From NCBI RefSeq assembly GCF_000442255.1, contig NZ_KE557281.1, forward strand, positions 117,159 to 181,158: a DNA stretch of 64,000 bases, written 5' to 3'. Both the position numbers and the translations under genes were made by a program. This DNA comes from Salipiger mucosus DSM 16094 (GTDB lineage Bacteria; Pseudomonadota; Alphaproteobacteria; Rhodobacterales; Rhodobacteraceae). Numbering within the stretch: the first letter of the stretch is position 1; the number at the start of each line of letters is the position of its first letter. Shown in pieces: positions 45,798-58,707 of the stretch. A model generated the notes under the pieces. That model was not told the origin of the DNA and searched no databases. It saw only the letters and a program-made list of their open reading frames with translations.

Positions 45798-45803
45798 AGA
45801 TAT

Positions 45804-45941: not shown

Positions 45942-45955
45942 AGACAAACGAAAAC

Positions 45956-46039: not shown

Positions 46040-46274
46040 GACATGCGCGGCCTCGCCTGACCGTCCCGATGGTAAGAGCAAAGGTCGAAAAAATTGCCTC
46101 GCGCATCACCGCCCTCGCCTCGTGGCGGCATAGAAATCGCAGGAACACCGACCCACCCTGCGGGTCAGACGCGCTGGAGTCCAAGCCGGTGCGGCTAACG
46201 GGGCGCCAATTCCATTCTATTCTTGCCATCCAACTATTCTTTCGGCATGATGCCCCAAAGAAAGGATCGCGTCA

Positions 46275-46367
46275 TGGCAGATCGAAAGATGCCCGAGCAG
46301 GTCAAACTCGGAGACAGTCATAACACGCCCCTCACCCTAACGCGCAACGAACGCAACATTGCGTTCT
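46275..46367 (+). pseudogene. Short 5' gene fragment cut off by the IscB element
   Basis: A frame of about 31 codons starts MADRKMPEQVKLGDSHNTPL after GAAAGGATCGCGTC and ends in TGA just at the left edge of the IscB element. It may be the N-terminus of the DUF262-type gene whose remainder follows IscB. The 46040-46270 stretch before it holds no gene I can support. Confidence 0.35.
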
Positions 46368-46586
46368 GAGCGCCGGGTGAGGTGCAGACTAAGAAAGGAG
46401 AAATCCAATCTACGTTAGTGGCGTGATGAAATGCACTGGTGAACGCCAGCCATTGCCTCTTTCGCTCAGCTTTAAGTCTCTCGCGCGAGCGGGAGGGGCT
46501 GAAAGGTCCAGTGAGTTGGGCACACGAAAGCGCCAGTAACTTTGTCGAGGCAAACGTAACGGCCTGAGGGCCAGAAAGGGACAGAA
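46367..46586 (+). ncRNA. Candidate IscB omega RNA
   Basis: About 220 structured, gene-free bases directly before iscB, the place and size of the omega RNA in IscB systems. Segments such as CTCTCGCGCGAGCGGGAGGG and GGCCTGAGGGCC are strongly self-complementary. The guide would be the 16 or so bases at its 5' end, near 46360-46382. Confidence 0.6.
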
Positions 46587-47876
46587 ATGTCCAACTATGT
46601 TTTAGTTCTGGATGACGGTCGGCGACCCTTGTCGCCGACGTCGCCAGCACGAGCGCGACAGTTGCTGCGCGATGGGAAGGCGGCGGTGTTTCGTCGTTAT
46701 CCCTTCACGATCATCCTCAAGCGGAAGGTGCCTGATGCGGAGCCCGCCCCGGTTGAAGTGAAAATCGACCCTGGCTCCAAGACCACGGGTCTGGCACTGG
46801 TGCAGGGTGACAAGGTTCTCTGGGGCGGGGAGCTGACCCATCGTGGCCACCAAATCAGGGACCGCTTGCAGATGCGCCGTGAGCGCCGTCGTGGACGGCG
46901 GAACAAGCTGCGCTACCGCAAGCCACGTTACAGGACCAAGGCTCAGATCAATAACGCTGACCGAAAGCGTAAGAAGGGTTGGCTCGCACCGAGCCTGCTG
47001 CACCGCGTCGAAACGATCATGACCTGGATGGACAGGTTTCGCCGCTACGCGCCCGTCGGGTCCATCGCGATGGAACTGGTGAAATTCGATCTGCAGCAGA
47101 TGCAGAACCCTGAAATCAGCGGCGTCGAGTATCAGCAGGGCGATCTGGCAGGCTTCGAAGTGAAGGAGTATCTCCTCGCCAAATGGGGCCGCAAGTGCGC
47201 CTATTGCGGAGCTGAGGGCCGCCCGCTCGAGGTTGAACATATCCAACCCAGGTCGCGCGGCGGCTCGAACAGGGTCAGCAACCTGACGCTCGCCTGCGAG
47301 CCCTGCAACCAGGCCAAGGGCAACAAGCCAGTCGAGGCGTTCTTGTCGAGCAAGCCCGACCTTCTGGCGCGCATCATGAAACAGGCGAAACGGCCTCTCA
47401 GAGACGCGGCATCGGTCAACTCGACACGCTGGGTCCTGTTCACCGCACTGAAGCTGACGGGGCTGCCTGTCACGGCGGGAACAGGCGGAAGGACCAAGTA
47501 CAACCGCAAGCGGATGGGCTGGGCCAAGGCTCATTGGCTCGATGCCGCGGCCGTCGGCAACGTGGATGCCCTGACCCTTCGCACCGACAAGCCGTTGCTT
47601 ATCTCTGCCAAGGGTCAGGGTGGTCGACAGAAGGGCGTGTTTGACAAACACGGCCAGCCCCGCCGCAACAAGGCGGGCGCCGCTCAGATCCGCCCGCTCA
47701 AGCCCATCCACGGCTGGCGCTCCGGCGACATCGCCAAGGCGCGCGGGCTAGAGGGTCGCATCTCTCCGCGCACCAGGGGCAGTTTTGAACTCCGCGCCGC
47801 GGGACAGAAACCCCGCTCGTTCCCACCTCGTGATTTCGTGGCGATCCATCGCAACGACGGTTACGCGTATCAATGA
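46587..47876 (+). CDS. iscB: RNA-guided nuclease IscB
   Basis: 429 residues. Order of parts: PLMP-type N-terminus (LDDGRRPLSPTSPARARQLL), RuvC-I VEVKIDPGSKTTGLALV, Arg-rich bridge helix (RLQMRRERRRGRRNKLRYRK), RuvC-II SIAMELVKFD, HNH domain with CAYCGAEGRPLEVEHIQPRS and CEPCNQAKGN, then RuvC-III AHWLDAAAVGNVD. All catalytic positions appear intact. It is an ancestor-type relative of Cas9 that cuts DNA with an omega RNA. Its stop overlaps the start of the DUF262 fragment (ATGA). Confidence 0.93.
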   Translation: MSNYVLVLDDGRRPLSPTSPARARQLLRDGKAAVFRRYPFTIILKRKVPDAEPAPVEVKIDPGSKTTGLALVQGDKVLWGGELTHRGHQIRDRLQMRRERRRGRRNKLRYRKPRYRTKAQINNADRKRKKGWLAPSLLHRVETIMTWMDRFRRYAPVGSIAMELVKFDLQQMQNPEISGVEYQQGDLAGFEVKEYLLAKWGRKCAYCGAEGRPLEVEHIQPRSRGGSNRVSNLTLACEPCNQAKGNKPVEAFLSSKPDLLARIMKQAKRPLRDAASVNSTRWVLFTALKLTGLPVTAGTGGRTKYNRKRMGWAKAHWLDAAAVGNVDALTLRTDKPLLISAKGQGGRQKGVFDKHGQPRRNKAGAAQIRPLKPIHGWRSGDIAKARGLEGRISPRTRGSFELRAAGQKPRSFPPRDFVAIHRNDGYAYQ

Positions 47877-48346
47877 TGTTGCGTTCGTTGCGGAAAATGC
47901 GTGCCGTCGGACAGCTGATGATGTATCAGAACGAGCCCAGCTTTTCCGGGATGGACAAGTGCCGGACGGTCATGGGTCTGAAGTTACCCACCTGGCAACG
48001 GCCGCTTGTCTGGACCGAAGAGCAGAACATCCGCTTCCTCGAGAGTCTTTGGCTGGGCCTTCCTGTCGGGACCTATAGCTACAACATGGTCTTGGACGGC
48101 GGCGCCCTCGACGGGCTCCTGATCGACGGGCAGCAGCGACTCAACGCAATCCAGCGATACCTGGAAGATGCCTTCCCCGTCTTCGGTCACAGGTGGTCCG
48201 AGGTGACCAAGGTCGACCAACGGCTCTTCAAGCTGACCGCGTTCCCGTCATACTGCACGCAGTCATCGGACGAGCAATACTTGCGCGATTACTACAATCG
48301 CATGAACTTCGGCGGGGTCGCGCACACGGAAGAACAGCGGGCATAG
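47873..48346 (+). CDS. DUF262-type protein, short or truncated
   Basis: 157 residues. VMGLKLPTWQRPLVWTEEQN then IRFLESLWLGLPVGTYSYN and GLLIDGQQRLNAIQRYLE form the DUF262 core (ParB-like fold, with the DGQQR motif found in GmrSD-type proteins). YLRDYYNRMNFGGVAHTEEQ follows. It stops there, so only the N-terminal domain is present, as in short phage homologues. Its ATG overlaps the iscB stop and has no ribosome-binding site of its own, suggesting that the element cut an older gene. Confidence 0.7.
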   Translation: MMLRSLRKMRAVGQLMMYQNEPSFSGMDKCRTVMGLKLPTWQRPLVWTEEQNIRFLESLWLGLPVGTYSYNMVLDGGALDGLLIDGQQRLNAIQRYLEDAFPVFGHRWSEVTKVDQRLFKLTAFPSYCTQSSDEQYLRDYYNRMNFGGVAHTEEQRA

Positions 48347-48519
48347 GCAGGCAAAGATTTCCTTGCTCATGTCAAATCTATGCTTGACCGGCGTTCATTA
48401 TATCCTTATGGAAGTCTTTGCGCACCATTCGGGAGGTGTCCTCCTGAGGTGTCGCGCCCGGGGTGGTTCCTTTCAAGTTCGGTCCGTTCATCCCCCCCCC
48501 CGGGCGCCACTAAAATTTT

Positions 48520-48595
48520 GCCGCCGTAGCTCAGTTGGTAGAGCGCGCCCGTGGTATGGGTGAGGTCGCGGGTTCGATCCCTGCCAGCGGCACCA
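48520..48595 (+). tRNA. tRNA-Thr(GGT)
   Basis: Acceptor GCCGCCG/CAGCGGC with one C-A mismatch. Anticodon loop GTGGTAT. CCA encoded. Confidence 0.88.
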
Positions 48596-48609
48596 GACTA
48601 AGGAAGACA

Positions 48610-48780
48610 ATGGCCATCAACAGAGCAATGCACCCCGTCACGGACAAGGAAATCATCGCTTTTCTCGAAGAGGAAGCGAAGAGGGCCGAAGCTGACGTCG
48701 TGGAGAACCAGCGGGTTGGAGATATCCGGCCGGAACTGCTTTGGGCCGCGGCAAGTCGCATTCGTGGCGGCGTAAAATAA
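48610..48780 (+). CDS. Small hypothetical protein (56 aa)
   Basis: Starts MAINRAMHPVTDKEIIAFLE; acidic and helical. AGGAAG precedes the ATG. It lies between tRNA-Thr and tRNA-Gln. No family recognised. Confidence 0.5.
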   Translation: MAINRAMHPVTDKEIIAFLEEEAKRAEADVVENQRVGDIRPELLWAAASRIRGGVK

Positions 48781-48787
48781 GGAATTT

Positions 48788-48862
48788 TGGGGTGTAGCCA
48801 AGTGGTAAGGCAACGGTTTTTGGTACCGTGCACCGCAGGTTCGAATCCTGCCACCCCAGCCA
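48788..48862 (+). tRNA. tRNA-Gln(TTG)
   Basis: Acceptor TGGGGTG/CACCCCA with the T1-A72 pair typical of tRNA-Gln, discriminator G, CCA encoded. Anticodon loop TTTTGGT. Confidence 0.92.
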
Positions 48863-48881
48863 AAACAAGGAACAGGACGGC

Positions 48882-49319
48882 TTGCACGACGTCTCTCACA
48901 TTCGTCCGGATCGACTTGTCATTGCTCCCATCGACAAGAAAGACCAGTTCACGACGCTGGTGAAGCAGGTCTTCTGGGCGGTCTATGTCACCGGGGAGAG
49001 CCAGGTCCTGTCGGCAGCGAAGGCGGAAACCAAGGACGATCTGCACGCCGTGATTTCCGAGAAGATCGCCGCCTATCCGGCTGTCGAGAACCGGGTGGCG
49101 TTGCGCACCGCTGACGGGGATGAAGGCTACGTGATCGAGCCCACCTCGATGGAAGAGGTCGCGTTCAGGATCGAGCAGGACATGGACGACCACGATCTGA
49201 CAGGCCGCAAGAAGTCAGCCCCCGATCCCTTCGCGGATCTCTTGCCCGCTCTGAACCGCTGGCTCGAAGGGCCCGAAACCGACTGGCGCCTTGCGCCCGA
49301 AGCGGCACCTGCGTCCTGA
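48882..49319 (+). CDS. Hypothetical protein (145 aa), TTG start
   Basis: I chose the TTG at 48882 because AACAGGACGGC lies just before it; an upstream ATG at 48828 would be inside tRNA-Gln. PIDKKDQFTTLVKQVFWAVY and NRVALRTADGDEGYVIEPTS suggest a globular protein. It is followed at 17 bases by another gene with a similar theme (EAYI/LYIAPVHPDELVAVLM against YVIEPTSMEEVAFRI), so the two may be distant paralogues. Confidence 0.5.
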   Translation: MHDVSHIRPDRLVIAPIDKKDQFTTLVKQVFWAVYVTGESQVLSAAKAETKDDLHAVISEKIAAYPAVENRVALRTADGDEGYVIEPTSMEEVAFRIEQDMDDHDLTGRKKSAPDPFADLLPALNRWLEGPETDWRLAPEAAPAS

Positions 49320-49335
49320 CAGACAGGAGACAATC

Positions 49336-49752
49336 ATGCAGAAACGGATTCCAGACTTCGACCGGGTGACCCATTTCACGATCACGCCGATTTTCGAACA
49401 GCAGATGGGCTGCAGCTACAACGACGCGGCCGATTGGATGGTCATGGGGATCGCCGCGGACGACACCGTCGAGTTCGCCATGACCACGAACCAGCGCGAC
49501 AGCCTGGACGGCGTCCTGAGCGAATGCTTCGGTGCCTGCCCGCAGGCCCAGGACAAGGTCGCCTTCAAGTCGTTCGAGAACGGCGAGGAGCTCTACATCG
49601 CGCCGGTTCACCCGGACGAACTCGTTGCGGTCCTGATGGAATATGTTGTCGACGATATGCCAGACGATGCACCGAACACCGACGATCACCCGCTCGAAGA
49701 GGTTCAGACCGCCCTCGACGAGGCGATGGCGACCATCGAAGTGTCGCCGTGA
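49336..49752 (+). CDS. Hypothetical protein (138 aa)
   Basis: ACAGGAGACAATC precedes the ATG. Acidic. ENGEELYIAPVHPDELVAVL near residue 82 resembles EGYVIEPTSMEEVAFRI of the preceding gene, suggesting duplicated genes. No family recognised. Confidence 0.5.
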   Translation: MQKRIPDFDRVTHFTITPIFEQQMGCSYNDAADWMVMGIAADDTVEFAMTTNQRDSLDGVLSECFGACPQAQDKVAFKSFENGEELYIAPVHPDELVAVLMEYVVDDMPDDAPNTDDHPLEEVQTALDEAMATIEVSP

Positions 49753-49774
49753 ACACTTGGGGCAGCGTCTCGAG

Positions 49775-50038
49775 ATGGCCCAGCGCGGCTGGCATTCCAC
49801 CATCTCGGTCGATCATAACACGCGGCGCGCGGACACGGTCTCCGTCCGCTTCCGGGTCAATCGCTACTACTGGGCTGGAGACCGCATCGATCTCAGTTTT
49901 GGAGATATGGCAAAGAGCGTGCCGTTCTCGGACGTGGAGATCCTGAAGACGCTCCGCGAACAGATCGATGCGGTCCAGGAAGCGACAGTCCGCGCATGCC
50001 GTACGATTGCCAGAACCGGGATTGGGGTTATCGCCTGA
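49775..50038 (+). CDS. Hypothetical protein (87 aa)
   Basis: Starts MAQRGWHSTISVDHNTRRAD; a beta-rich N-terminus (VRFRVNRYYWAGDRIDLSFG) followed by a helix. The ribosome-binding site is weak, so the start is uncertain. It overlaps the next gene by 43 bases. Confidence 0.4.
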   Translation: MAQRGWHSTISVDHNTRRADTVSVRFRVNRYYWAGDRIDLSFGDMAKSVPFSDVEILKTLREQIDAVQEATVRACRTIARTGIGVIA

Positions 50039-50262
50039 CTCTCGGAAAGGTCGAACATCTCGGAGAGCCTCTTGCACGCCAGCGCGAGCAGTTGACGTCA
50101 AAGCATCTCAACGAGGCCATCATTTCCGGCGTCATTCTCGGCGCGGCCGACGGTCTCGATCAGCTCTTCGAAATGTATCCCGACGGCATGCCGCCAGGCT
50201 TCATGACACGGGCCGACAAACTCGCCGAACAGGATCGCCTGTTCTCGGCTCCCAAGATTTAG
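49996..50262 (+). CDS. Hypothetical protein (88 aa)
   Basis: Starts MPYDCQNRDWGYRLTLGKVE. The overlap with the previous gene suggests coupling. Helical; no family recognised. It ends 6 bases before tRNA-Leu. Confidence 0.4.
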   Translation: MPYDCQNRDWGYRLTLGKVEHLGEPLARQREQLTSKHLNEAIISGVILGAADGLDQLFEMYPDGMPPGFMTRADKLAEQDRLFSAPKI

Positions 50263-50268
50263 AAACAC

Positions 50269-50357
50269 GCGGATGTGGTGGAATGCAGGTAGACGCGCGA
50301 GCTTCAGGTGCTCGTGCCCGAAAGGGCGTGAGGGTTCGAGTCCCTCCGTCCGCACCA
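50269..50357 (+). tRNA. tRNA-Leu(CAG)
   Basis: Class II tRNA with a long variable arm (TGCCCGAAAGGGCGT). Acceptor GCGGATG/CGTCCGC. Anticodon loop TTCAGGT. CCA encoded. Confidence 0.93.
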
Positions 50358-50419
50358 TGGTTTCCTTCCCCAGTGAAGGAGCAAGCCATCCATTCGAAAT
50401 CGCAAAATCACGGAATTTC

Positions 50420-50497
50420 GGTGCGGTAGCTCAGTCAGGTAGAGCATCGGGCTCATAACCCGAGGGTCGCTGGTTCAAATCCAGCCTCGCACCACCA
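50420..50497 (+). tRNA. tRNA-Met/Ile2(CAT), elongator type
   Basis: Acceptor GGTGCGG paired with TCGCACC, with one extra base after the T-stem. Anticodon loop CTCATAA. If C34 is modified to lysidine it would read AUA as Ile. CCA encoded. Confidence 0.82.
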
Positions 50498-50566
50498 GAT
50501 CGCCGGGCTCGTCCTCTCGAGGAAAGCACGGCCCGACAAGTAAGTTGTCAATTAATCATAGAACAT

Positions 50567-50643
50567 CGTGGTGTAGCTCAGTCCGGTAGAGCACCGAGCC
50601 GATAACTCGGTTGCCGTAGGTTCGAATCCTACCACCACGACCA
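50567..50643 (+). tRNA. tRNA-Ile(GAT), atypical C33
   Basis: Acceptor CGTGGTG/CACCACG, discriminator A, CCA encoded. Anticodon stem CCGAG/CTCGG with loop CCGATAA, so base 33 is C. Confidence 0.82.
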
Positions 50644-50663
50644 GAACGTGCGATCCTGCCTGT

Positions 50664-50740
<77 letters not shown>

Positions 50741-50766
50741 AAACTCCGGGATCGCACAAACACATT

Positions 50767-50841
50767 GGACGGGTAGCTCAGGGGTAGAGCGGTTGGTTGA
50801 AGCCCAGCGCGCCGGAGGTTCGATTCCTCCCTCGTCCACCA
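50767..50841 (+). tRNA. tRNA-Phe(GAA)
   Basis: Acceptor GGACGGG/CTCGTCC, anticodon loop TTGAAGC, CCA encoded. A diverged second copy lies at 51770-51844, on the other side of the vapBC pair. Confidence 0.88.
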
Positions 50842-50958
50842 GGTGTCCGGTATGTTTCGTCACCTATGTCTCGGGTCGCTCACCGCTCGACATCCGGCAA
50901 GATCATTGAAAGCAGGGCGTAATCGGTATATATATCCTGATATCTTCGGAGGAAGGCT

Positions 50959-51261
50959 ATGGCTACCACCGCACAAAAGAGAGCGATAAAAAACTACCGG
51001 GCGCGTCTAACGCAGCGCGGGTTCAAGCGCTTCGAGGTCATGGCGCTCGAAGCCGACCGCGAACTGATCCGGTCACTAGCGCGCTGCTTGGCAGAAGACG
51101 GCGCGAAAGCCGATGAGGCGCGCGCTGCGGTGAAGGCTGTCGTAGCGGGAGAACCGCCAAAGCCCGGCGGAGTTTTAGCCGCGCTGCGCCGCTCGCCCTT
51201 GGTCGGGGCCGAACTCGATCTCACGCGCCCGCGCGAAGAAGGGCGCGGGATTGACCTTTGA
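50959..51261 (+). CDS. vapB: VapB-like antitoxin
   Basis: 100 residues. A basic N-terminus (KRAIKNYRARLTQRGFKRFE) is followed by EADRELIRSLARCLAEDGAK, similar to short ribbon-helix-helix antitoxins, and a C-terminal Pro/Arg-rich tail that could wrap the toxin. GGAGGAAGGCT precedes the ATG. The stop overlaps the TTG start of the PIN toxin. The pair lies between two copies of tRNA-Phe. Confidence 0.72.
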   Translation: MATTAQKRAIKNYRARLTQRGFKRFEVMALEADRELIRSLARCLAEDGAKADEARAAVKAVVAGEPPKPGGVLAALRRSPLVGAELDLTRPREEGRGIDL

Positions 51262-51689
51262 CGCGCTACCTTCTCGATACAAACATCATTAGCAATATCG
51301 TCAAACCGAAGCCGTCGGAATCGTTGTTGCAGTGGATGGAGGCGCAGAAGGACGAAGACCTGTTTATCGCCTCGCTGACCATCGCCGAAATTCGGCGCGG
51401 CATTCTGGAAAAGCCACGCGGCAAGAAACGAGCTGCGCTCGACGCTTGGTTCTCCGGGCCGGAAGGACCGCAGGAACTGTTTGCGAGCCGGATCCTGCCC
51501 TTTGACGACAAGGCGGCGGTGATATGGGCACAGCTCATGGCCACGGGTAAGTCTGCCGGACATCCGCGCAGTGCGCTGGATATGATAATTGCTTCCGTGG
51601 CAGGTGCGAATAATTGTGTGGTGGTGACGGACAACGCGAAAGATTTCGCAGACATTCAGTTCGTCAACCCACTGCGCGAAGCTAATTGA
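51258..51689 (+). CDS. vapC: PIN-domain ribonuclease toxin VapC
   Basis: 143 residues with a TTG start overlapping the vapB stop. PIN acidic residues are in YLLDTNIISNIV (D near 7), SLTIAEIRRGI (E near 44), SALDMIIASVAGANNC (D near 107) and VVTDNAKDFADI (D near 124). VapC toxins cleave tRNA or rRNA, which is notable given the position inside a tRNA array. Confidence 0.9.
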   Translation: MTRYLLDTNIISNIVKPKPSESLLQWMEAQKDEDLFIASLTIAEIRRGILEKPRGKKRAALDAWFSGPEGPQELFASRILPFDDKAAVIWAQLMATGKSAGHPRSALDMIIASVAGANNCVVVTDNAKDFADIQFVNPLREAN

Positions 51690-51769
51690 CATGGCATCTA
51701 TCCCTGCGGTCTTCTGTATAGGGAGCCGGAAGGCAGCCTTCATCGACAAGCGGGACTTCATCACACATT

Positions 51770-51844
51770 GGACGGATAGATCAGGGATAGAGCGGTTGGT
51801 TGAAGCCCAGCGCGCCGGAGGTTCGGTCCCTCCCTCGTCCACCA
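51770..51844 (+). pseudogene. Diverged copy of tRNA-Phe
   Basis: Differs from tRNA-Phe at 50767-50841 at five positions. One breaks the D-stem (GCTC to GATC) and another changes A58 of the T-loop to G. The anticodon arm and the 3' end with CCA are unchanged. Probably a pseudo-tRNA produced when the vapBC islet was acquired. Confidence 0.7.
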
Positions 51845-51933
51845 GTTCAGTTCGTACCGTACATGTGCCCAGAATGGGCCTTGAAAAGCAGCCCGGAGGA
51901 AGACCACACACAATGTAAAAGATGGAGATTTCT

Positions 51934-52308
51934 ATGCCAGCAGAGAAGAGCCTTGAGGAGGTCCTGGAAGACCACCGACGCAAACGGGGAGCAACATCGA
52001 TCAGTATCTCATTGGCACCAGGTGCCAACCCCGAAGAGATCGAGAAATTCCTCGAAAGTGTGCGAAGGGAAGAGGTCAAATTCTACACGTACTCCCAACT
52101 CGAGCGCTCGCAGGCGTATGCCGCTCGACTGAAGAATCTTCTTCGTGAGGTACGTCGCCTTGCCTGTGTCGACCCCTCTGCTTCCGAGGAGGAGTTGCGA
52201 GACCGGATGACGGATATCTCCTTGAAGGCGGATCTTATCGTTGACGTCCACTTCGAGAAGGACATCGCATTCATGGAGGCAGCCAGAGAGAAGGCTGCTG
52301 CCGAGTAG
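51934..52308 (+). CDS. Hypothetical protein (124 aa)
   Basis: Start chosen at the ATG after GGAGATTTCT. Highly charged and helical: KSLEEVLEDHRRKRGATSIS and EEIEKFLESVRREEVKFYTY are visible. No family recognised. It follows the pseudo-tRNA copy. Confidence 0.5.
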   Translation: MPAEKSLEEVLEDHRRKRGATSISISLAPGANPEEIEKFLESVRREEVKFYTYSQLERSQAYAARLKNLLREVRRLACVDPSASEEELRDRMTDISLKADLIVDVHFEKDIAFMEAAREKAAAE

Positions 52309-52393
52309 CAGCTAACACGCGGTCGACCGATTTTCAGGATCTGGTCCCGCCGACGGCACCGGCCCGCGGCCGAAACAGCGGGTCACGATTTTC

Positions 52394-52469
52394 TGCGGGA
52401 TGGAGCAGCGCACAGCTCACCGGGCTCATAACTCGGAGGTCGTCGGTTGGAGTCCGGCTCCCGCAACCA
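52394..52469 (+). tRNA. Second initiator-like tRNA-Met(CAT), atypical T-loop
   Basis: GCGGGA/TCCCGC acceptor core with T1-A72, TGGAGCAG D-arm, anticodon loop CTCATAA and encoded CCA. The T-loop is TTGGAGT, with G instead of C at position 56, so it may be inactive or diverged. Confidence 0.75.
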
Positions 52470-52478
52470 GATAGAATT

Positions 52479-52554
52479 GGATCGGTAGCTCAGTGGAGAG
52501 AGCATCGCGTTGCGGACGCGAAGGTCGAGGGTTCGAATCCTTCTCGGTCCACCA
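52479..52554 (+). tRNA. tRNA-Arg(GCG)
   Basis: Acceptor GGATCGG/TCGGTCC, anticodon stem TCGCG/CGCGA with loop TTGCGGA. CCA encoded. GCG34 is unusual for Arg because most bacteria use ACG modified to ICG. Confidence 0.85.
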
Positions 52555-52561
52555 AAAATAC

Positions 52562-52637
52562 GGGGCCTTAGCTCAGCTGGGAGAGCGCCTGCTTTGCAAG
52601 CAGATGGTCGTCGGTTCGAACCCGACAGGCTCCACCA
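52562..52637 (+). tRNA. tRNA-Ala(TGC), first copy
   Basis: Acceptor GGGGCCT/AGGCTCC, with the G3-T70 pair that identifies alanine tRNA. Anticodon loop TTTGCAA. CCA encoded. Confidence 0.93.
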
Positions 52638-52663
52638 ATCATGCTTGGATCGACGCTGGTGAA

Positions 52664-52903
52664 ATGCAGTACACAATCGAGTACGACAACGAGGTCGACG
52701 GAGAACATGTCGATCTGGAGGGCGCTGACCTGTCCCTGCTGGGAACGGACCCGCACTCCATCGAAACAGGTGCCGCAGAGGGACCTGTCGCCTATTACGA
52801 ATTCCCGGGGGATACCGAGGAAGCCGACATCGAGGCTGCCCTCGACAAGAGCGATTGGTGCTTCAAGTCCATGACCAGGCTGGATGGGGCGCCCGCCCCC
52901 TGA
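52664..52903 (+). CDS. Small acidic hypothetical protein (79 aa)
   Basis: Starts MQYTIEYDNEVDGEHVDLEG; strongly acidic. The ATG follows GGTGAA. It lies 26 bases after tRNA-Ala. No family recognised. Confidence 0.45.
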   Translation: MQYTIEYDNEVDGEHVDLEGADLSLLGTDPHSIETGAAEGPVAYYEFPGDTEEADIEAALDKSDWCFKSMTRLDGAPAP

Positions 52904-52974
52904 GGGCTTCCGGTGCGGTCCTCGAGACCCCATCTTCCTGGAGACAGATCACACAGGAAGAGAAAGGAAAGAAA

Positions 52975-53412
52975 ATGGGTCTCCTGTCCACGATCCGGGC
53001 CGACAGCCTTGCCGCCCGGAAATCCAAGTCGCCGAGCTCCAGCGTCCTGACGACGCTCCGGGGTGAACTCGACACGAAGACGAAGTCACTGTCGCCGGCA
53101 CGCGACCTCACCGACGCCGAGGTTCTGGCCGTCGTCCAGAAGTTCATCAAGAGCATCGATGAGACCATCATCCATCTCGAGAAGAACGGTAGCGCCGAGG
53201 CCTTGGCAACCGCCCGCGCCGAACGGGCTGCCCTCGAAGTCTACCTGCCCAAGCAGATGACCGAGGCGGAGCTCGAGGCGTTCGTCCAGGCCAAGGTAGC
53301 CGAGGGCGCCAACATGGGTCAAATCATGCAGGCGCTTAAGGCCGAGCATGGTGGTCAGTACGATGGCAAGTTGGCATCCCAGATCGCCAAGCGGTACCTC
53401 GCGGCCGCCTGA
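52975..53412 (+). CDS. GatB/YqeY-domain protein
   Basis: 145 residues. The YqeY fold is visible: RAERAALEVYLPKQMTEAEL then VQAKVAEGANMGQIMQALKA and DGKLASQIAKRYLA. The same helical domain ends GatB and binds tRNA in amidotransferases; free YqeY proteins are poorly understood. Finding it inside a tRNA array suggests a tRNA-related role. GAAAGGAAAGAAA precedes the ATG. Confidence 0.8.
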   Translation: MGLLSTIRADSLAARKSKSPSSSVLTTLRGELDTKTKSLSPARDLTDAEVLAVVQKFIKSIDETIIHLEKNGSAEALATARAERAALEVYLPKQMTEAELEAFVQAKVAEGANMGQIMQALKAEHGGQYDGKLASQIAKRYLAAA

Positions 53413-53473
53413 GAACACGAGGTCGAGCCGCCCCCGGCGGCTCCCTCACCATTGACCTGATTTCCGCGGATCT

Positions 53474-53502
53474 TTGACAAACTATCCCACTTAGGATACG
53501 CA
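53474..53502 (+). promoter_or_regulatory. Promoter of solitary CRISPR-repeat unit 1
   Basis: TTGACA at 53474-53479, 17-base spacer, then TACGCA at 53497-53502. The expected transcription start is about 53508, at the first bases of the repeat-like unit. Confidence 0.6.
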
Positions 53503-53505
53503 AAA

Positions 53506-53538
53506 GATCGCACTCGAGGGAAGTGCGTGGATTGAAAC
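53506..53538 (+). ncRNA. Solitary type I-C-like CRISPR repeat unit 1 (candidate RNA anti-CRISPR)
   Basis: The unit has a stem CGCACT-CGAGGGA-AGTGCG followed by TGGATTGAAAC, the architecture of type I-C repeats (GTCGCACTC...GAGTGCGTGGATTGAAAC type). There is no second repeat nearby and no cas gene in the window. The same 3' half (AGTGCGTGGATTGAAA) recurs at 57991-58006. The downstream sequence holds a GC hairpin. Confidence 0.65.
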
Positions 53539-53568
53539 GGAGGCTCGAAGCCCTCTCCTCGCCACCAC

Positions 53569-53618
53569 ACACCGGCGGTAGGATGCCTTTCCTCGGAAAG
53601 GTGAGTTGCCGCCGGTGT
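53569..53618 (+). terminator. Large perfect hairpin downstream of repeat unit 1
   Basis: ACACCGGCGG (53569-53578) pairs with CCGCCGGTGT (53609-53618). The loop holds CCTTTCC-TCG-GGAAAGG-like pairing. It may end or stabilise the small transcript. Confidence 0.5.
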
Positions 53619-53660
53619 ATCCCTCGCCACCAAACAAGCAAGAACAAAACGAGGTAGCAA

Positions 53661-53879
53661 ATGAGCTTGAAGATCAGGCATCTCGACGAGACGAGCGCGC
53701 TGGGCACCCTGGATGGCGCCCTGCCCTTTGAAATCCGTCGAGATGGAAAAACGACGACCGCGCGGATCGCGGGCTGGGTGCACACGGTGCAGACCCATGC
53801 CGCCTCCTCCGCCGCGGGAATGCGGGCGGCCGCCTATGCGGTGGTTGCCAGGTATCGCGACGCCCACCGGCACGCATGA
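53661..53879 (+). CDS. Small hypothetical protein (72 aa)
   Basis: Starts MSLKIRHLDETSALGTLDGA; a beta-rich front (PFEIRRDGKTTTARIAG) and an Ala-rich helix at the end. GAGGTAGCAA precedes the ATG. It is the first gene after repeat unit 1. No family recognised. Confidence 0.45.
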   Translation: MSLKIRHLDETSALGTLDGALPFEIRRDGKTTTARIAGWVHTVQTHAASSAAGMRAAAYAVVARYRDAHRHA

Positions 53880-53951
53880 CGCCTGCCCGTGGGGCGCGAT
53901 GACAGCGGGACCGGGCGCTTCCTGATTTTTTCAGGTCCGGTCCCGCTTCTT

Positions 53952-54027
53952 ATGGGTGTAGCTCAATGGTAGAGCGCCGGCTTCCAACCCCGGGCCGTTG
54001 TGGGTTCGATTCCTACCACCCGTGCCA
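53952..54027 (+). tRNA. tRNA of uncertain identity, Gly(TCC) or Trp(CCA)
   Basis: Acceptor ATGGGTG/CACCCGT, discriminator G, CCA encoded. The anticodon arm CCGG-CTTCCAACC-CCGG gives a 9-base loop or a mismatched 7-base loop TTCCAAC. The D-arm resembles tRNA-Gly; the acceptor equals that of the tRNA-Trp that follows. Confidence 0.65.
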
Positions 54028-54065
54028 ATTTCCGGCGATGCGATAGCGTCGCCAATCCTTCCTGA

Positions 54066-54141
54066 ATGGGTGTAGCTCAGTTGGTAGAGCAGCGGATTCC
54101 AAATCCGCCGGTCGGGGGTTCGAGTCCCTCCGCCCGTGCCA
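54066..54141 (+). tRNA. tRNA-Trp(CCA)
   Basis: Acceptor ATGGGTG/CGCCCGT, discriminator G, CCA encoded. Anticodon stem GCGGA/TCCGC with loop TTCCAAA. Confidence 0.92.
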
Positions 54142-54148
54142 GGAAGAT

Positions 54149-54223
54149 GCGGACATAGCTCAGCGGTAGAGCTCCTGCTTGCCAAGCAGAAGGTCACGGG
54201 TTCGATCCCCGTTGTCCGCTCCA
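54149..54223 (+). tRNA. tRNA-Gly(GCC)
   Basis: Acceptor GCGGACA/TGTCCGC, discriminator T, CCA encoded. Anticodon loop TTGCCAA. Confidence 0.94.
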
Positions 54224-54271
54224 GTTTTCTCCTTTCGATAGGTCGATCACGTGCCGCTCGTCAGGACACAT

Positions 54272-54361
54272 GCCCAGGTGGTGGAATTTCGGTAGACGCG
54301 CTGGCTTGAGGGGCTGGTGACCATTGCGGTCGTGCGGGTTCGAGTCCCGCCCTGGGCACCA
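54272..54361 (+). tRNA. tRNA-Leu(GAG)
   Basis: Class II with a variable arm (TGACCATTGCGGTCGT). Acceptor GCCCAGG/CCTGGGC. Anticodon loop TTGAGGG. CCA encoded. Confidence 0.94.
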
Positions 54362-54450
54362 GAATTCGACATCTAACCCGCAATTTTATTCTTGCGGATT
54401 TGATGCCTGGAGCGTAAGGCTCCACAAATCATAATGGATAGAAGGAAGTC

Positions 54451-54735
54451 ATGCCGAAGGATGAGTTGAATCCGGATGTTGCACTCGGTTGGCGCAGCGA
54501 TTGGCAGAATGCGCCACGCGACGGAACCGAGATCGACGTCAATTCTCACGACCTTTCGGAGCCTGGGACAGTCGTCTGGTCCGAGCGCCCAGTATGCATG
54601 GGCGGGGATCGCGTCGGGGGCTGCGAGCCCGGATGGGCTACGGGGTTGGAGAACGGCACGGACGTCAATCTGCCCGTGGATCAGCCCGATCTCTGGCGCC
54701 CCATGGAGAAAGACGTCAGCTCCTTGAAGGATTGA
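54451..54735 (+). CDS. Hypothetical protein (94 aa)
   Basis: Starts MPKDELNPDVALGWRSDWQN; acidic, Trp-rich. GAAGGAAGTC precedes the ATG. The pattern WQNAPRDGTEIDV resembles small phage proteins that start (W)xxAPxDGTxI. Function unknown. Confidence 0.55.
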   Translation: MPKDELNPDVALGWRSDWQNAPRDGTEIDVNSHDLSEPGTVVWSERPVCMGGDRVGGCEPGWATGLENGTDVNLPVDQPDLWRPMEKDVSSLKD

Positions 54736-54835
54736 CTGTTTGCCGCTCATTGAATAAAAGACGAACAGATTTCAGGGCATGGCGTCCGGACGCTGTTCCC
54801 TGAGAGGTGAAAGTCTCCCACCGCGCTTTCCCGTC

Positions 54836-54911
54836 GCGGCTATAGCTCAGTCGGGAGAGCGCCTGCATGGCATGCAGGAGGTCGGGAGTTCGAGCCTCCC
54901 TGGCTCCACCA
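54836..54911 (+). tRNA. tRNA-Ala(GGC)
   Basis: Acceptor GCGGCTA/TGGCTCC with a C2-C71 mismatch but G3-T70 kept. Anticodon stem CCTGC/GCAGG, loop ATGGCAT. CCA encoded. Confidence 0.87.
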
Positions 54912-55078
54912 GTTTTCTCGCGCTGCGGCGCGAGTGGGCTCCGAGCGTAGTGTGTCGCAATCGAGCCAACCGTAAGGTTTGCAGTGTGATCGTGTAGTCG
55001 AGGGGTGGCTCCTCCGAACGGCTGCGATACTCGGACCCTGGCCCGGTGAATGACACTGAAACGGGCCGTTCTCATCAC

Positions 55079-55154
55079 GCTGTCTTAGCTCAACCGGTAG
55101 AGCAGCCGCTTCGTACGCGGCAGGCCGCCAGTTCGATCCTGGCCGACAGCTCCA
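55079..55154 (+). tRNA. tRNA-Thr(CGT)
   Basis: Acceptor GCTGTCT/CGACAGC, anticodon stem GCCGC/GCGGC, loop TTCGTAC. CCA encoded. Confidence 0.91.
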
Positions 55155-55160
55155 GAATTT

Positions 55161-55234
55161 TGCCCGGTCTTCTAGCGGTAGGAATACGCGTTCTGGGCGC
55201 GGAAACCTTGGTTCGAATCCAAGTCGGGCATCCA
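55161..55234 (+). tRNA. tRNA-Gln(CTG)
   Basis: Acceptor TGCCCGG/TCGGGCA with T1-A72. D-arm TTCTAGCGGTAGGAA. Anticodon loop TTCTGGG. CCA encoded. Confidence 0.87.
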
Positions 55235-55307
55235 ATGCCAGTCTCCCAACAGATTGAATCTTTCCACCTGGGCCGGCACTTGCCAGGGGGAGATACGGGA
55301 GTTTGAA

Positions 55308-55892
55308 ATGAAGGCAAACATTGGCAGGTTTTTTGCGAACACGACCAAGGCGATCATGGTTGCCGGCATCGGTACAACTGCGGCCATCGTGCTGTCTGGC
55401 ACTTTGGACAAGGTCGGAGATCCACCACAGGATCGAGGCGTTGTGTTCAGCATGGAAGAACATGTGGGACCGAACGCGGTCTATGACGCGGAAGATCTGG
55501 CCGCGCAGCTTCGCGACGGCGCGGATCATCTTGCCAACTACATGGAGCAATCCAATGAGGGGAACATTTTCGCAGCCTCCGCGGAAGCGCGTGCTGCCGT
55601 TCATGACTATGACGACGCATGCATCTACGCCAGCCGGATTGCGACAAGCATGGCGATGAACGAAAACGAGAGCCCCGAGATGAGGGAACTGGTCGGCGAC
55701 ATCTGTGAAGGGAGAGACGCCATCGTTGCCATGATGGAGCAAGTGTCCGGTCCGATCCAGCAACTTCTGTCCATTCGGAATGCAGCGCAAATCAAGGTGG
55801 TCAGCGCCGCCGAGGCGTTCGACATCGAGCCGCGCTACGATGTTCGTCCGTTCCCGGATTCCGACGGAGGCCCGGCAGGACCAACCATGTGA
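55308..55892 (+). CDS. Membrane-anchored hypothetical protein (194 aa)
   Basis: An N-terminal hydrophobic segment (about residues 10-30, TTKAIMVAGIGTTAAIVLSG) is a signal anchor or signal peptide. The rest is acidic and helical, probably extracytoplasmic. CGGGAG precedes the ATG. No family recognised. Confidence 0.55.
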   Translation: MKANIGRFFANTTKAIMVAGIGTTAAIVLSGTLDKVGDPPQDRGVVFSMEEHVGPNAVYDAEDLAAQLRDGADHLANYMEQSNEGNIFAASAEARAAVHDYDDACIYASRIATSMAMNENESPEMRELVGDICEGRDAIVAMMEQVSGPIQQLLSIRNAAQIKVVSAAEAFDIEPRYDVRPFPDSDGGPAGPTM

Positions 55893-55984
55893 TCTGCGCT
55901 GGTCACCACAGAAGTTCGAAGGCTGTCGCGCGCCCTGCCCGGCAGCCTTTTCATTTTCAGGATCGACAACCGAAGGAGACAAAG

Positions 55985-56176
55985 ATGTCGAAACGAAAAC
56001 CGAAGCTGGCGCCGCGGAACGGCCATGTCGCCGCCATGCGCCAGAAATCCGGCGGCGCCCACGGCAAGACGAAGAAGGCCCAGCGCCAGGCGGACAGGAT
56101 GCAGCTCAAGCGCAGCATTCGGGACATTCAGACGAGCGACGACGCGGCCGTTCTTCTGAGTGTCTCGTGCGTTTGA
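55985..56176 (+). CDS. Small basic hypothetical protein (63 aa)
   Basis: MSKRKPKLAPRNGHVAAMRQ and the following KSGGAHGKTKKAQRQADRMQ make it very basic, so it is likely nucleic-acid binding. GAAGGAGACAAAG precedes the ATG. The similar spacing of Lys/Arg to small phage DNA-binding proteins is suggestive only. Confidence 0.55.
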   Translation: MSKRKPKLAPRNGHVAAMRQKSGGAHGKTKKAQRQADRMQLKRSIRDIQTSDDAAVLLSVSCV

Positions 56177-56183
56177 AGGATAT

Positions 56184-56271
56184 GGGGAGGTGGCAGAGCG
56201 GTCGATTGCGGCGGACGGTAAATCCGTTCCGGGTATCCGGCACCCTGGTTCGAATCCAGGCTTCCCCACCA
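56184..56271 (+). tRNA. tRNA-Tyr(GTA), atypical G33
   Basis: Class II. Acceptor GGGGAGG/CTTCCCC. Anticodon stem GCGGA/TCCGT with loop CGGTAAA, so base 33 is G instead of T. CCA encoded. Confidence 0.82.
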
Positions 56272-56277
56272 AGAAAT

Positions 56278-56354
56278 GACGACGTAGCTCAGTTGGTGAG
56301 AGCGCCGAGCTCATATCTCGGAGGTCGAAGGTTCGAACCCTTCCGTCGCCACCA
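56278..56354 (+). tRNA. tRNA-Met/Ile2(CAT)
   Basis: Acceptor GACGACG/CGTCGCC with an A2-C71 mismatch. Anticodon loop CTCATAT. CCA encoded. Could be the lysidine-type Ile tRNA or a Met elongator. Confidence 0.82.
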
Positions 56355-56359
56355 AAAAA

Positions 56360-56755
56360 TCAGGTTTCGCGGATGCGCAGTCTCTTGAGACCTTCCATAT
56401 TCCTCCAGGCCTCCCTTGAGGGCTGGTCCAGGTCTCGAACGCCGTGATCGTGGGCTTCCTTGCCCGATGCGAAGACCTCGACGTCCGAGTTGTACTCGAA
56501 GGTCTCCGGCGCGACGTCCTGTCGGTGCAGGCGCAGTGCGAGGAGTTCGCGGGGATCGTGCGTCAGGAGCCATCCACCGCACAGGCATCCGTCCTTCTGA
56601 TGGCACAGGAAGACGGCTGGGTTCTGTTCCCAGGTTTCGCCGTCGTAGGTCGTGAGCTTCTCGTACTCGGATCGATGCCAGATGCCGGATGGCACATCTG
56701 CCCGGTACGGGCAGGACCCGCAGGGAACCTTCGGCGGTTGAAGTCGGTCGGTCAT
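56360..56755 (-). CDS. DUF6283-like protein
   Basis: 131 residues, the only minus-strand gene inside the array. PCGSCPYRADVPSGIWHRSE then EYEKLTTYDGETWEQ and VFLCHQKDGCLCGGWLL give the CxxCPYRxDVPSGxW...CHQ...CxGW pattern of DUF6283, probably a metal-binding protein common in phages. The start at 56755 (MTDRLQPPK) is chosen over 56806. Confidence 0.78.
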   Translation of the reverse strand: MTDRLQPPKVPCGSCPYRADVPSGIWHRSEYEKLTTYDGETWEQNPAVFLCHQKDGCLCGGWLLTHDPRELLALRLHRQDVAPETFEYNSDVEVFASGKEAHDHGVRDLDQPSREAWRNMEGLKRLRIRET

Positions 56756-56815
56756 GAACGGCCCTCTGGAACTTGCGGCAATGGACCACGGAAGTTCAGA
56801 AATCACAATCCTTCA

Positions 56816-56890
56816 GGATCCGTAGCTCAGCGGAAAAGCGCCTGCCCGACACGCAGGATGTCGGACGTTCAAGTCGTCCCGGATCCACCA
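56816..56890 (+). tRNA. tRNA-Val(GAC), atypical C33
   Basis: Acceptor GGATCCG/CGGATCC. Anticodon stem CCTGC/GCAGG with loop CCGACAC, so base 33 is C. CCA encoded. Confidence 0.83.
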
Positions 56891-56904
56891 GAAATCATGA
56901 AAAT

Positions 56905-56980
56905 GGGACCTTAGCTCAGTTGGTAGAGCGCTTCGTTTACACCGAAGATGTCGACAGTTCGAGCCTGTCAGGTCCTACCA
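56905..56980 (+). tRNA. tRNA-Val(TAC)
   Basis: Acceptor GGGACCT/AGGTCC(T), anticodon stem CTTCG/CGAAG, loop TTTACAC. CCA encoded. Confidence 0.92.
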
Positions 56981-56993
56981 GATCCTGCAGTAC

Positions 56994-57069
56994 GGGCCGG
57001 TAGCTCAGTCGGGAGAGCGTCTGCTTTGCAAGCAGGCGGTCGCGAGTTCGAGTCTCGCTCGGTCCACCA
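56994..57069 (+). tRNA. tRNA-Ala(TGC), second copy
   Basis: Acceptor GGGCCGG/TCGGTCC with G3-T70. Anticodon loop TTTGCAA. CCA encoded. Confidence 0.93.
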
Positions 57070-57143
57070 TTTGTCCACTTTTTTGACCCTCATTTAACCA
57101 TTGCCCTGTAGGGCTCCGCCCAACGAACAGGAGACAGGAAACC

Positions 57144-57518
57144 ATGCAAGTGAACCTTCATCAGACCATCATGGAAGCGCCGATGTCCGTGGAAGGTGTC
57201 GAGAACGTCTACGTGAAGGGTGGGATGCTCTGCCTCATGAAGAAGGCCGCCAACGGCAACCGCGAAACGGCGAAGTATCCGCTGGCCCACATCGCGAAGT
57301 ACGAAACCTGGATGCGGCGTGAAGAGGTCGAATTCCAGGATGAACGCACCACGGCCGTCGTTCACCTCGTCAGTCATTCGGAACCCGAGATCTTCCGCTC
57401 GCATGTCGCCCCCGAGGCCACCGCCTTTCTCTACCGCGTGTTCACGGAAGATGGCGACGACGAGGTGAAGGTGACCAGCTTTCCGCTGATCAACATCTTC
57501 CGCGTCAAGGAGCGCTGA
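57144..57518 (+). CDS. Hypothetical protein (124 aa)
   Basis: AGGAGACAGGAAACC precedes the ATG. GVENVYVKGGMLCLMKKAAN and FLYRVFTEDGDDEVKVTSFP suggest a beta-rich fold. No family recognised. It opens a three-gene unit with the two short genes that follow. Confidence 0.5.
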   Translation: MQVNLHQTIMEAPMSVEGVENVYVKGGMLCLMKKAANGNRETAKYPLAHIAKYETWMRREEVEFQDERTTAVVHLVSHSEPEIFRSHVAPEATAFLYRVFTEDGDDEVKVTSFPLINIFRVKER

Positions 57519-57521
57519 TCC

Positions 57522-57644
57522 GTGAACCTCAGGTACGCGATCTACTCGGCGCTCTGCTGCGGCGTTTTCGCAGCCTCGGTGGCCTTCATGGACTTCGAGG
57601 CTGCGAAAACCGACGTGACATGGCCGGGCGGCGGAATGGAATGA
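57522..57644 (+). CDS. Small membrane peptide (40 aa), GTG start
   Basis: Reads MNLRYAIYSALCCGVFAASV and AFMDFEAAKTDVTWPGG: one hydrophobic helix, single-pass. It starts 3 bases after the previous stop and its own stop overlaps the next ATG (ATGA). Confidence 0.4.
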   Translation: MNLRYAIYSALCCGVFAASVAFMDFEAAKTDVTWPGGGME

Positions 57645-57784
57645 TGGATCAGACAGCCATTCGGGCTAGGGATGCGGCCGAGAACTTCGCTGATCTGGTA
57701 GCCGCGGTCCTTAGAACGATCCCGGCTGTCCTCTTCGACGACATCGGATTCGAGCCGGCGCAGGTGTCGGCCCCCTCATACTGA
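57641..57784 (+). CDS. Small hypothetical protein (47 aa)
   Basis: Starts MMDQTAIRARDAAENFADLV, helical, coupled to the preceding gene by ATGA overlap. No family recognised. Confidence 0.35.
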   Translation: MMDQTAIRARDAAENFADLVAAVLRTIPAVLFDDIGFEPAQVSAPSY

Positions 57785-57816
57785 AATTCCACGCGGCCAG
57801 ATCGGCTGCGTGTGAT

Positions 57817-57892
57817 GCACCCTTGGTCTAAAGGTCAGGACGCCGCCCTTTCAAGGTGGAGTTGCTCGGTTCAAGTCCGGCAGGGTGTGCCA
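57817..57892 (+). tRNA. tRNA-Glu(TTC)
   Basis: Acceptor GCACCCT/AGGGTGT, discriminator G, CCA encoded. Anticodon stem CCGCC/GGTGG, loop CTTTCAA. Confidence 0.91.
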
Positions 57893-57943
57893 AAGACGCC
57901 ACAGTGGCAGATTGCGTTGTCAAGGACAAATATTTCTTGCCGC

Positions 57944-57972
57944 TTGACACTCTATTCAATCTCCAGTATTCG
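57944..57972 (+). promoter_or_regulatory. Promoter of solitary CRISPR-repeat unit 2
   Basis: TTGACA at 57944-57949, 17-base spacer, TATTCG at 57967-57972. The predicted start near 57979 is at the 5' end of the repeat-like unit, the same geometry as at unit 1. Confidence 0.6.
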
Positions 57973-57976
57973 GGAG

Positions 57977-58007
57977 GCCGCTCTCGCAAGAGTGCGTGGA
58001 TTGAAAG
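57977..58007 (+). ncRNA. Solitary type I-C-like CRISPR repeat unit 2 (candidate RNA anti-CRISPR)
   Basis: GCCGCTCTCGCAAG then AGTGCGTGGATTGAAAG. The stem is CTCT/AGAG (or CGCtCT/AGTGCG with one mismatch), followed by the conserved TGGATTGAAA tail. No other repeat follows within the window and no cas gene is seen. Confidence 0.62.
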
Positions 58008-58154
58008 GAAGCCCGTTGGGTGTACCAAGATCCGGAGCCCTTGTGGCGGTTAAGCCTCGACCGGGAAATTACCGAGGTGAGCTCGGCGCCTGCTTTCATA
58101 GGAATGGCGCCACATTTTCCTTCCGTAGTGTCGTCGTCCGTGCTGGGAACTTCT

Positions 58155-58514
58155 TCAGCCAGCACCGTTGATGACCCAGTTCGAGTGTACCCATCCCCGG
58201 CGGCGCTGATGCTGATCCCTGTGCCCATTTAGGTAGCTGCTTCCCGTATAGACCACTCCCATCCACGCGCCTTGCCGAATGCAGGGGTACACAGCATCGC
58301 CATTATGGACTTCGTCGATCTTTCTGTAGTTCGAGCCCGGCCCGGTCCGCACTGCAAGGAAGCCATCTCCGTTAGGATCGAGTCCGTCCACATAGTGGAT
58401 GGTGCACCCGTTGGCTTCCAGAGGTCCAGCCGGCGACGAAAAGGGCACATCCAGGCTCTGTGCGGATGCGGCAGACGCTGAGAGCGCGCCCAACAATGCC
58501 AGGGTTCGAAGCAT
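58155..58514 (-). CDS. Secreted SH3-like domain protein
   Basis: 119 residues. A signal peptide (MLRTLALLGALSASAASAQS) is followed by a bacterial SH3-type domain: GFLAVRTGPGSNYRKIDEVH then NGDAVYPCIRQGAWMGVVY and GWVHSNWV. Such domains bind cell wall or other periplasmic ligands. Convergent with the array; the start at 58514 was chosen for the signal peptide. Confidence 0.8.
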   Translation of the reverse strand: MLRTLALLGALSASAASAQSLDVPFSSPAGPLEANGCTIHYVDGLDPNGDGFLAVRTGPGSNYRKIDEVHNGDAVYPCIRQGAWMGVVYTGSSYLNGHRDQHQRRRGWVHSNWVINGAG

Positions 58515-58630
58515 TATGAAAATCCCGAAATCAGCGTCAAAGAACTTCAAAATCCTGTCGCAGCCGTGTGCGCCAGTCAAGTAGACGCTCGATACCTCAA
58601 AAGGTGAACCTGCCGGTATCACCGGCTCAC

Positions 58631-58707
58631 GCCCCCATCGTCTAAATGGAATAGGACGCTGCGTTCTCAGCGCGGTAATACCGGTTCGAGTCCGGTTGGG
58701 GGTGCCA
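58631..58707 (+). tRNA. tRNA-Glu(CTC)
   Basis: Acceptor GCCCCCA/TGGGGGT, discriminator G, CCA encoded. Anticodon stem CTGCG/CGCGG, loop TTCTCAG. Last clear tRNA of the array. Confidence 0.92.

Follow-up and report, generated by a model that had tools for sequence, protein, structure and literature searches.

The window analysed here, a stretch of 64,000 nucleotides from Salipiger mucosus DSM 16094 (assembly GCF_000442255.1, contig NZ_KE557281.1, positions 117,159 to 181,158; coordinates below are window positions unless otherwise indicated), carries two solitary units that mimic the repeats of type I-C CRISPR (clustered regularly interspaced short palindromic repeats) systems, both within an array of transfer RNA (tRNA) genes. 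They are interpreted as a pair of candidate RNA anti-CRISPRs (Racr), probably decoys imitating the handle side of a CRISPR RNA (crRNA). Four features are at the basis of this interpretation: the type I-C repeat sequence and structure, the solitary state, the twofold occurrence of the same TTGACA geometry and, for unit 1, a spacer-length gap followed by a hairpin. Racr are recognized by mimicry of a repeat in sequence and structure, and by its solitary occurrence: both units show these properties.

Sequence and layout of the two units

Unit 1 is 32 nt long (53507–53538, + strand, ATCGCACTCGAGGGAAGTGCGTGGATTGAAAC), the same length as the type I-C repeats to which it was compared. The original prediction, which had proposed a unit of 33 bases, is corrected accordingly, while the CGCACT/AGTGCG stem and the type I-C tail TGGATTGAAAC are present as described. 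The tail (53528–53538, +) corresponds to the 11-nt 5' handle of the crRNA expected from cleavage by Cas5d/Cas5c (for the handle length, see PMC5965380). The unit is preceded by an exact consensus -35 box, TTGACA (53474–53479, +), a hexamer found 11 times on the + strand across the window. At a 17-nt spacing lies the presumed -10 box, TACGCA (53497–53502, +). Since the latter matches TATAAT at two positions out of six, and the site is not listed by a sigma-70 scan of the window, the promoter is of consensus type in one half only.

The handle is followed by a spacer-length stretch of 30 nt (53539–53568, +), for which no convincing target was found, and by a strong hairpin (53569–53618, +), which could stabilise or end the RNA. 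The hairpin had been located correctly, but its stem is made of 13 outer and 7 inner base pairs, rather than the 10 bp first reported. It scores z values of -4.5 and -6.9, and equally strong hairpins occur at 2 of 150 random places in the tRNA array. As it starts 31 nt past the repeat, the order is handle, 30 nt, hairpin; for comparison, the four spacers of the own genome are 31–34 nt long. The fold of the unit, including the two preceding bases, has an energy of -8.3 kcal/mol, reached by 6 of 200 shuffled sequences. According to the list of open reading frames (ORFs), unit 1 sits between the gene for a YqeY-like protein and an ORF at 53661, and is crossed by two long antisense frames.

Unit 2 (57977–58007, +, 31 nt, GCCGCTCTCGCAAGAGTGCGTGGATTGAAAG) came to light through a search allowing mismatches, which found GTGCGTGGATTGAAAG at 57992. 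Its loop is GCAA, its stem contains one T.T mismatch, and the final base of its handle is altered; several frames of the ORF list cross it. The loops of the two units differ, while the 11-nt handle and the base of the stem are retained, except for that one handle base. Here too a TTGACA box (57944–57949, +) is followed, at a 17-nt spacing, by a presumed -10 box, TATTCG (57967–57972, +).

In both units, about 4.5 kb apart on the same strand, the distance from the start of TTGACA to the first base of the stem is 35 nt. When 390 genomes, sampled from the order, were searched for the corresponding pattern, TTGACA-N25..31-CGC-N11..14-GCGTGGATTGAAA, it turned up in the own genome alone, at these two sites, both in the tRNA array; none of the 389 other genomes contains it, and the reversed control gave no match. 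Two matches to the repeat skeleton without mismatches are present in the window, while the best ones in 60 order-2 Markov windows have 2–4 mismatches. Beyond TTGACA, the promoter stretches of the two units are identical at 12 of 29 positions, a level reached by 5% of random pairs; their common descent is therefore not demonstrated.

Similarity to type I-C repeats

The best native type I-C repeats are identical to unit 1 at 27 of 32 positions (84%), a value above the 80% set beforehand as a test of the prediction. Compared with the six repeats of the own genome, unit 1 shares 20–24 of 32 positions, and 24 with their main form; its last 16 bases, and the handle TGGATTGAAAC within them, are the same in four of the six. 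Seven of the eight differences from the main form fall in the loop or the upper stem, where a C-G pair has become T-A through a change in each of its two bases. The most common repeats of five other arrays from the genus or family are more distant (20–22 of 32) and carry different handles. Unit 2 is identical to the own repeat at 22 of 31 positions. In the GTDB collection (84,980 species), TCGCACT-N7-AGTGCGTGGATTGAAAC matches 32 stretches, 21 of them from Paenibacillus.

A covariance model, R1, was built from 13 native type I-C repeats, including two of the own genome and excluding both units, and was applied to 281 kb of contigs from the own genome. Scores of 37.7–54.2 bits were obtained for the six repeats of its two arrays, and 29.7 bits (E 2e-4 genome-wide) for unit 1. 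On the 249-kb contig holding the window, the two best matches are units 1 and 2, and the next one scores 14.3 bits. The same scan revealed no CRISPR array on this contig, and at neither unit are there the two or more repeats by which an array is defined: within 250 nt, the best flanking match is 15/32 for unit 1 and 17/32 for unit 2. Unit 1 is thus solitary, as anticipated, and not the edge of a real array. The further statement that array and cas genes are absent holds for arrays on this contig, but not for the genome, where type I-C arrays and cas remnants are found on another contig.

Among Rfam families, the best match for both units is CRISPR-DR9, with 16.8 bits for unit 1 and 13.2 for unit 2, far below the cut-off of 45 bits. 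Even so, it argues against a different RNA, such as a tRNA remnant or a regulatory RNA, merely resembling a repeat. Such an RNA might be suggested by the location in a tRNA array and by the T-arm-like stretch GGCTCGAAGCC and by CCTCGCCACCA, both after unit 1, and is considered highly unlikely. A tRNA remnant at unit 1 was rejected, as neither ARAGORN nor cmscan, up to E 10, reports a tRNA there. The repeat tail followed by CCACCA was also searched in the viral contigs of IMG/VR: 11 stretches were obtained, three of them arrays, and none is tRNA-like by eye. As a separate observation, 15-nt direct repeats (CCTCGCCACCA.ACA, 14/15 identical) lie on either side of the hairpin behind unit 1, at 53557–53571 and 53622–53636.

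Proposed mode of action

The host system envisaged is an active type I-C system with a repeat of the GGATTGAAAC kind, whose cleavage would leave TGGATTGAAAC. Transcription of each unit would begin at the repeat or just ahead of it; Cas5c of such a host would read the base of the stem and cleave after it, as in the precursor of crRNAs. The downstream product would consist of the 11-nt handle and a useless guide, in unit 1 made of 30 nt and capped by the hairpin. Cas5c, Cas7 and perhaps Cas8c would assemble on this decoy and be kept from real crRNAs, so that the replicon would be shielded on entry into hosts with an active type I-C system. As only about 20 nt separate the implied start from the cut, the active product should be the handle side.

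Several published findings bear on these steps. The handle left by Cas5d is 11 nt long, and Cas5c and Cas7 jointly clamp the handle and start the assembly of Cascade (PMC5965380, PMC7684278). Inhibition has been reported of type I-C by RacrIC1 and of type I-F by a non-targeting crRNA (PMC10651486). In the case of RacrIF1, Cas6f cuts the RNA and the upstream part carries a Cas7f filament (PMC10651486).

A broader interpretation is possible, and held only tentatively: the paired, promoter-driven RNAs may mimic whole crRNAs, complete with stem, handle, filler and 3' hairpin, placed in the tRNA array as an RNA-only anti-defence island. Complexes of Cas5c, Cas7 and Cas8c would then form on a useless guide, and the array would counter both tRNA-cutting defences and CRISPR.

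The arrangement of unit 1, which is that of a mature type I-C crRNA (handle, 30 nt, hairpin), would also suit a single-guide crRNA gene, similar to delocalised crRNAs, in which the 30–35 nt after the handle are a real guide, directed against a rival element through the type I-C system of the host. This is distinctly unlikely, since no convincing target was found for either unit, the best E value being 0.3. The guide of unit 1 has no match in phages; in plasmids it matches 25 nt (92%) of a Rhizobium aldehyde dehydrogenase gene, with an E value of 2, and others more weakly. The guide of unit 2 matches, at its far end, 23 nt (95.7%) of Rhodobacter phage RcapNL, with the E value of 0.3, 21 nt in the tRNA-Glu of Proteus phages (E 4) and one plasmid (E 4). 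Exact 18-nt guide starts of both units are absent from IMG/VR, and a search of 61 genomes at E 0.001 returned the self-match only.

Evidence weighing against the interpretation

A number of results speak against a pair of handle-side decoys. The -10 boxes of both units are weak; poor -10 boxes are often found in alphaproteobacterial promoters. Of nine 3' ends tested in predicted folds, seven leave the stem of unit 1 in place, with its outermost pair below 0.2 in three of the seven, and two, at 53600 and 53640, abolish it; the stem of unit 2 exceeds 0.6 for three of six tested ends. A strong hairpin at spacer distance is missing from unit 2 (z -1.95 at +31; the best one, of -15.0 kcal/mol, is at +38). 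Compared with 52 native repeats, rather than with the 17,823 of the SRUFinder authors, unit 1 reaches 84% identity and 34.2 bits and so falls under the SRUFinder cut-off of 90% identity and 41.1 bits, which is a search threshold and not a defining property. The stem variant of unit 1 occurs in no IMG/VR contig, and either locus is present in one of 61 genomes only, the own one. No anti-CRISPR family was found among small neighbouring proteins, ten each in PHROGs and in Pfam, neither of them a library dedicated to anti-CRISPRs.

The handle-side mode itself departs from the studied case: in the experiments reported for RacrIF1 the handle alone gave no inhibition, and the acting part is upstream of the cut (PMC10651486).

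Unit 2, taken alone, is not significant genome-wide: its R1 score of 20.6 bits corresponds to an E value of 0.0063 in 281 kb and 0.125 in the whole genome. Scores of 25.7 and 25.5 bits were seen in two relatives; it is therefore the spacing of the promoter and the location, not the model, that make the case for unit 2. These same figures are what may be said in favour of a chance resemblance, which is nevertheless extremely improbable, given the E value of unit 1 and the twin layout: two units, 4.5 kb apart, have TTGACA at equal distance, and the pattern is missing from all the other genomes sampled.

Finally, no match to the Cas5 and Cas1 families was obtained in the own genome, which is 97.5% complete in 30 contigs, in a search that gave matches in 6 and 9, respectively, of 14 control genomes.

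The type I-C system of the own genome

Two type I-C arrays of three repeats each are located on another contig, C2, together with a broken cas operon. An IscB gene splits the HD part of Cas3 from the remainder, and a deletion, lacking cas5, has fused cas3 with cas8c; cas7 is present. In the family, Cas8c is found in 9 of 248 genomes. As the operon is broken, and Cas5 and Cas1 were not found, the units have no target in their own cell; any target would belong to other hosts or to earlier times. Protection from host CRISPR immunity, initially suggested, would accordingly not apply in this cell.

The remains of this system bring in the strongest rival explanation, namely that each unit is a relic, the leader end (promoter and first repeat) of an otherwise lost type I-C array, now without function. 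In both own arrays TTGAC precedes the stem by 37 nt, a distance similar to that in the units (35 nt), and the genome contains other decaying type I-C sequence: besides the cas3-cas8c fusion, a degenerate repeat, likely a true relic, lies beside cas3 at C2:91233-91264. In this latter repeat, however, handle bases have been lost, against none in unit 1 and one in unit 2. Eight random changes in 32 positions would spare the last 16 with a chance of about 0.001, by our own arithmetic, a figure biased by the fact that the units were spotted through that tail. Beyond TTGAC and its spacing, no likeness to the own leaders is visible by eye, and the flanks do not contain a second repeat. Altogether, the units are unlikely to be relics of this kind.

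Two spacers of own array 1 match sequences of the genome itself. Spacer 1 is identical, at 30 of 31 positions, to the iscB gene interrupting cas3; spacer 2, at 32 of 34 positions, to a gene for a 586-aa protein about 14 kb away, with TTC, which we take to be the protospacer-adjacent motif of type I-C, on the 5' side. The sites concerned, on C2, are L008:5644-5804 and 9681, and L009:3662. The own system may have been broken by an element matching one of its spacers.

Solitary type I-C units in viral contigs

In IMG/VR, TTGACA-N24..50-CGC-N9..16-GCGTGGATTGAAA matches 16 stretches, and for 15 of these the retrieved locus contains only one tail; a second scan, based on TTGAC, returned 30. The two scans together yielded 26 non-redundant TTGAC...GTCGC...GCGTGGATTGAAA units, of which 21 count as solitary, no other tail being present within 400 bp. 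Just over half of the solitary units (12 of 21) are only 27–30 nt long, with shortened loops. None of the IMG/VR units combines loops of native size (N11-14) with a distance of 31–37 nt; three stretches with other loop sizes (L150, L153, L159) have a distance of 36 nt.

A strong hairpin (-14.5 kcal/mol or lower, starting between +15 and +40) follows 7 of 20 solitary viral units, against 63 of 500 random positions; the count excludes the 21st unit, L177, where the contig ends too early. This excess is only suggestive, because the limits were set post hoc and one of the seven, L153, lies in likely coding sequence. In the broader, tentative interpretation given above, the TTGAC-led, loop-shortened viral units would belong to the same class as units 1 and 2, under the published identity cut-off. 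TTGAC-led solitary units with a total length of 27–29 nt were noted in the viral contigs L149, L150, L159, L166, L167, L170, L175 and L177.

With these units, the identity of 27/32 and the TTGACA distance shared by the two Salipiger units, an RNA anti-CRISPR stays the best reading of the locus, in qualified form, as first proposed.

Comparison with known systems

Two described Racr provide the closest comparisons. RacrIC1, from a Bifidobacterium pseudocatenulatum prophage (PMC10651486), is likewise a solitary type I-C repeat; it lies on a mobile element, as the present units may do, and the system it blocks is the type mimicked here. It is found 11 nt behind acrIC5, on one transcript with it, whereas a separate TTGACA precedes each Salipiger unit, no acr gene is recognised, and two divergent copies are found in a tRNA array. 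RacrIF1, from a Thiocystis violascens prophage (PMC10651486), is comparable as a solitary repeat with a CRISPR-like stem; it is intergenic and has an own promoter, as may be the case for the present units. It differs in being of type I-F, and in its active part, about 70–76 nt upstream of the Cas6f cut, where only about 20 nt are implied here.

The delocalised crRNAs of CRISPR-associated transposons (PMC11656645) are similar in being made from a divergent repeat outside the array; unlike them, the units lack a convincing target, and the window shows no transposon Cascade. Blocks of dozens of tRNA genes on plasmids and phages, termed tRNA array units, have been suggested to act in anti-defence (PMC12803027), in a paper that never uses the word CRISPR. 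A literature search pairing racr with tRNA arrays found no report in the collection searched. With respect to known Racr, the two candidates would be new in being divergent, paired, provided with a promoter at the repeat and placed in a tRNA array.

If the interpretation is correct, RNA anti-CRISPRs include divergent copies missed by identity-based searches, can occur in pairs, and can reside in the tRNA arrays of large replicons, not beside anti-CRISPR genes; this would be a reason to seek further repeat mimics in such arrays. In type I-C, cleavage of the repeat and binding of the handle both fall to Cas5c, and the units would offer a direct test of whether a repeat mimic can disarm such a system through its handle side.

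The tRNA array and the replicon

The array housing both units extends from 44855 to 58707 and contains 29 tRNA genes, all on the + strand, as predicted by ARAGORN; seven further tRNA genes are located in the following 20 kb of the contig. The block also holds small ORFs, genes for a PIN-domain protein and for the YqeY-like protein, which matches a phage tRNA-amidotransferase family, and an IscB gene.

Upstream of the array, DotM, DotD, T4SS_TraI-family and DotB-like proteins of the Dot/Icm type are encoded, along with JetB and JetC. Relatives of DotM occur in 1,223 plasmid records, each with less than 60% identity, and 940 of these are predicted to be conjugative. At E 1e-30, a DotM-like protein is found in one of 295 genomes of the family, the own one, and in none of the 294 others. 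For a neighbouring protein of 428 aa, neither plasmids nor viral contigs contain a relative. The replicon is likely mobile in origin. Its description as a conjugative element is partly supported, by the Dot/Icm-type genes, whose relatives are mostly on predicted conjugative plasmids, but not by the presence of flagellar genes on the same contig (FlgD, flhA-like DNA), nor by the scan for a relaxase, which was confined to the window, rather than the rest of the contig, and found none among the proteins scanned.

Spacers of other arrays were also compared to the contig: 7 of the 12 loci tried provided 107 spacers, the other five having no repeat of the pattern, and only local matches of 18 nt or less were obtained. 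When the four own spacers were compared to the window, the best full-length match was 24/31, in the iscB gene of the window.

Some minor features complete the description. JetC and JetB (29893–34045), components of the anti-plasmid defence system Wadjet, share the contig with the Dot/Icm-type genes. Within the tRNA array, at 50959–51689, the gene of the PIN-domain protein is preceded by a small ORF, with which it perhaps forms a toxin-antitoxin pair. A match of 135 nt to the tRNA model (45804–45938, 36.7 bits), absent from the ARAGORN listing, must hold extra sequence. At 46328–47876 lies the IscB gene of the array, together with a match to HEARO (omega RNA) just upstream of it, of 57.8 bits, the cut-off being 83.
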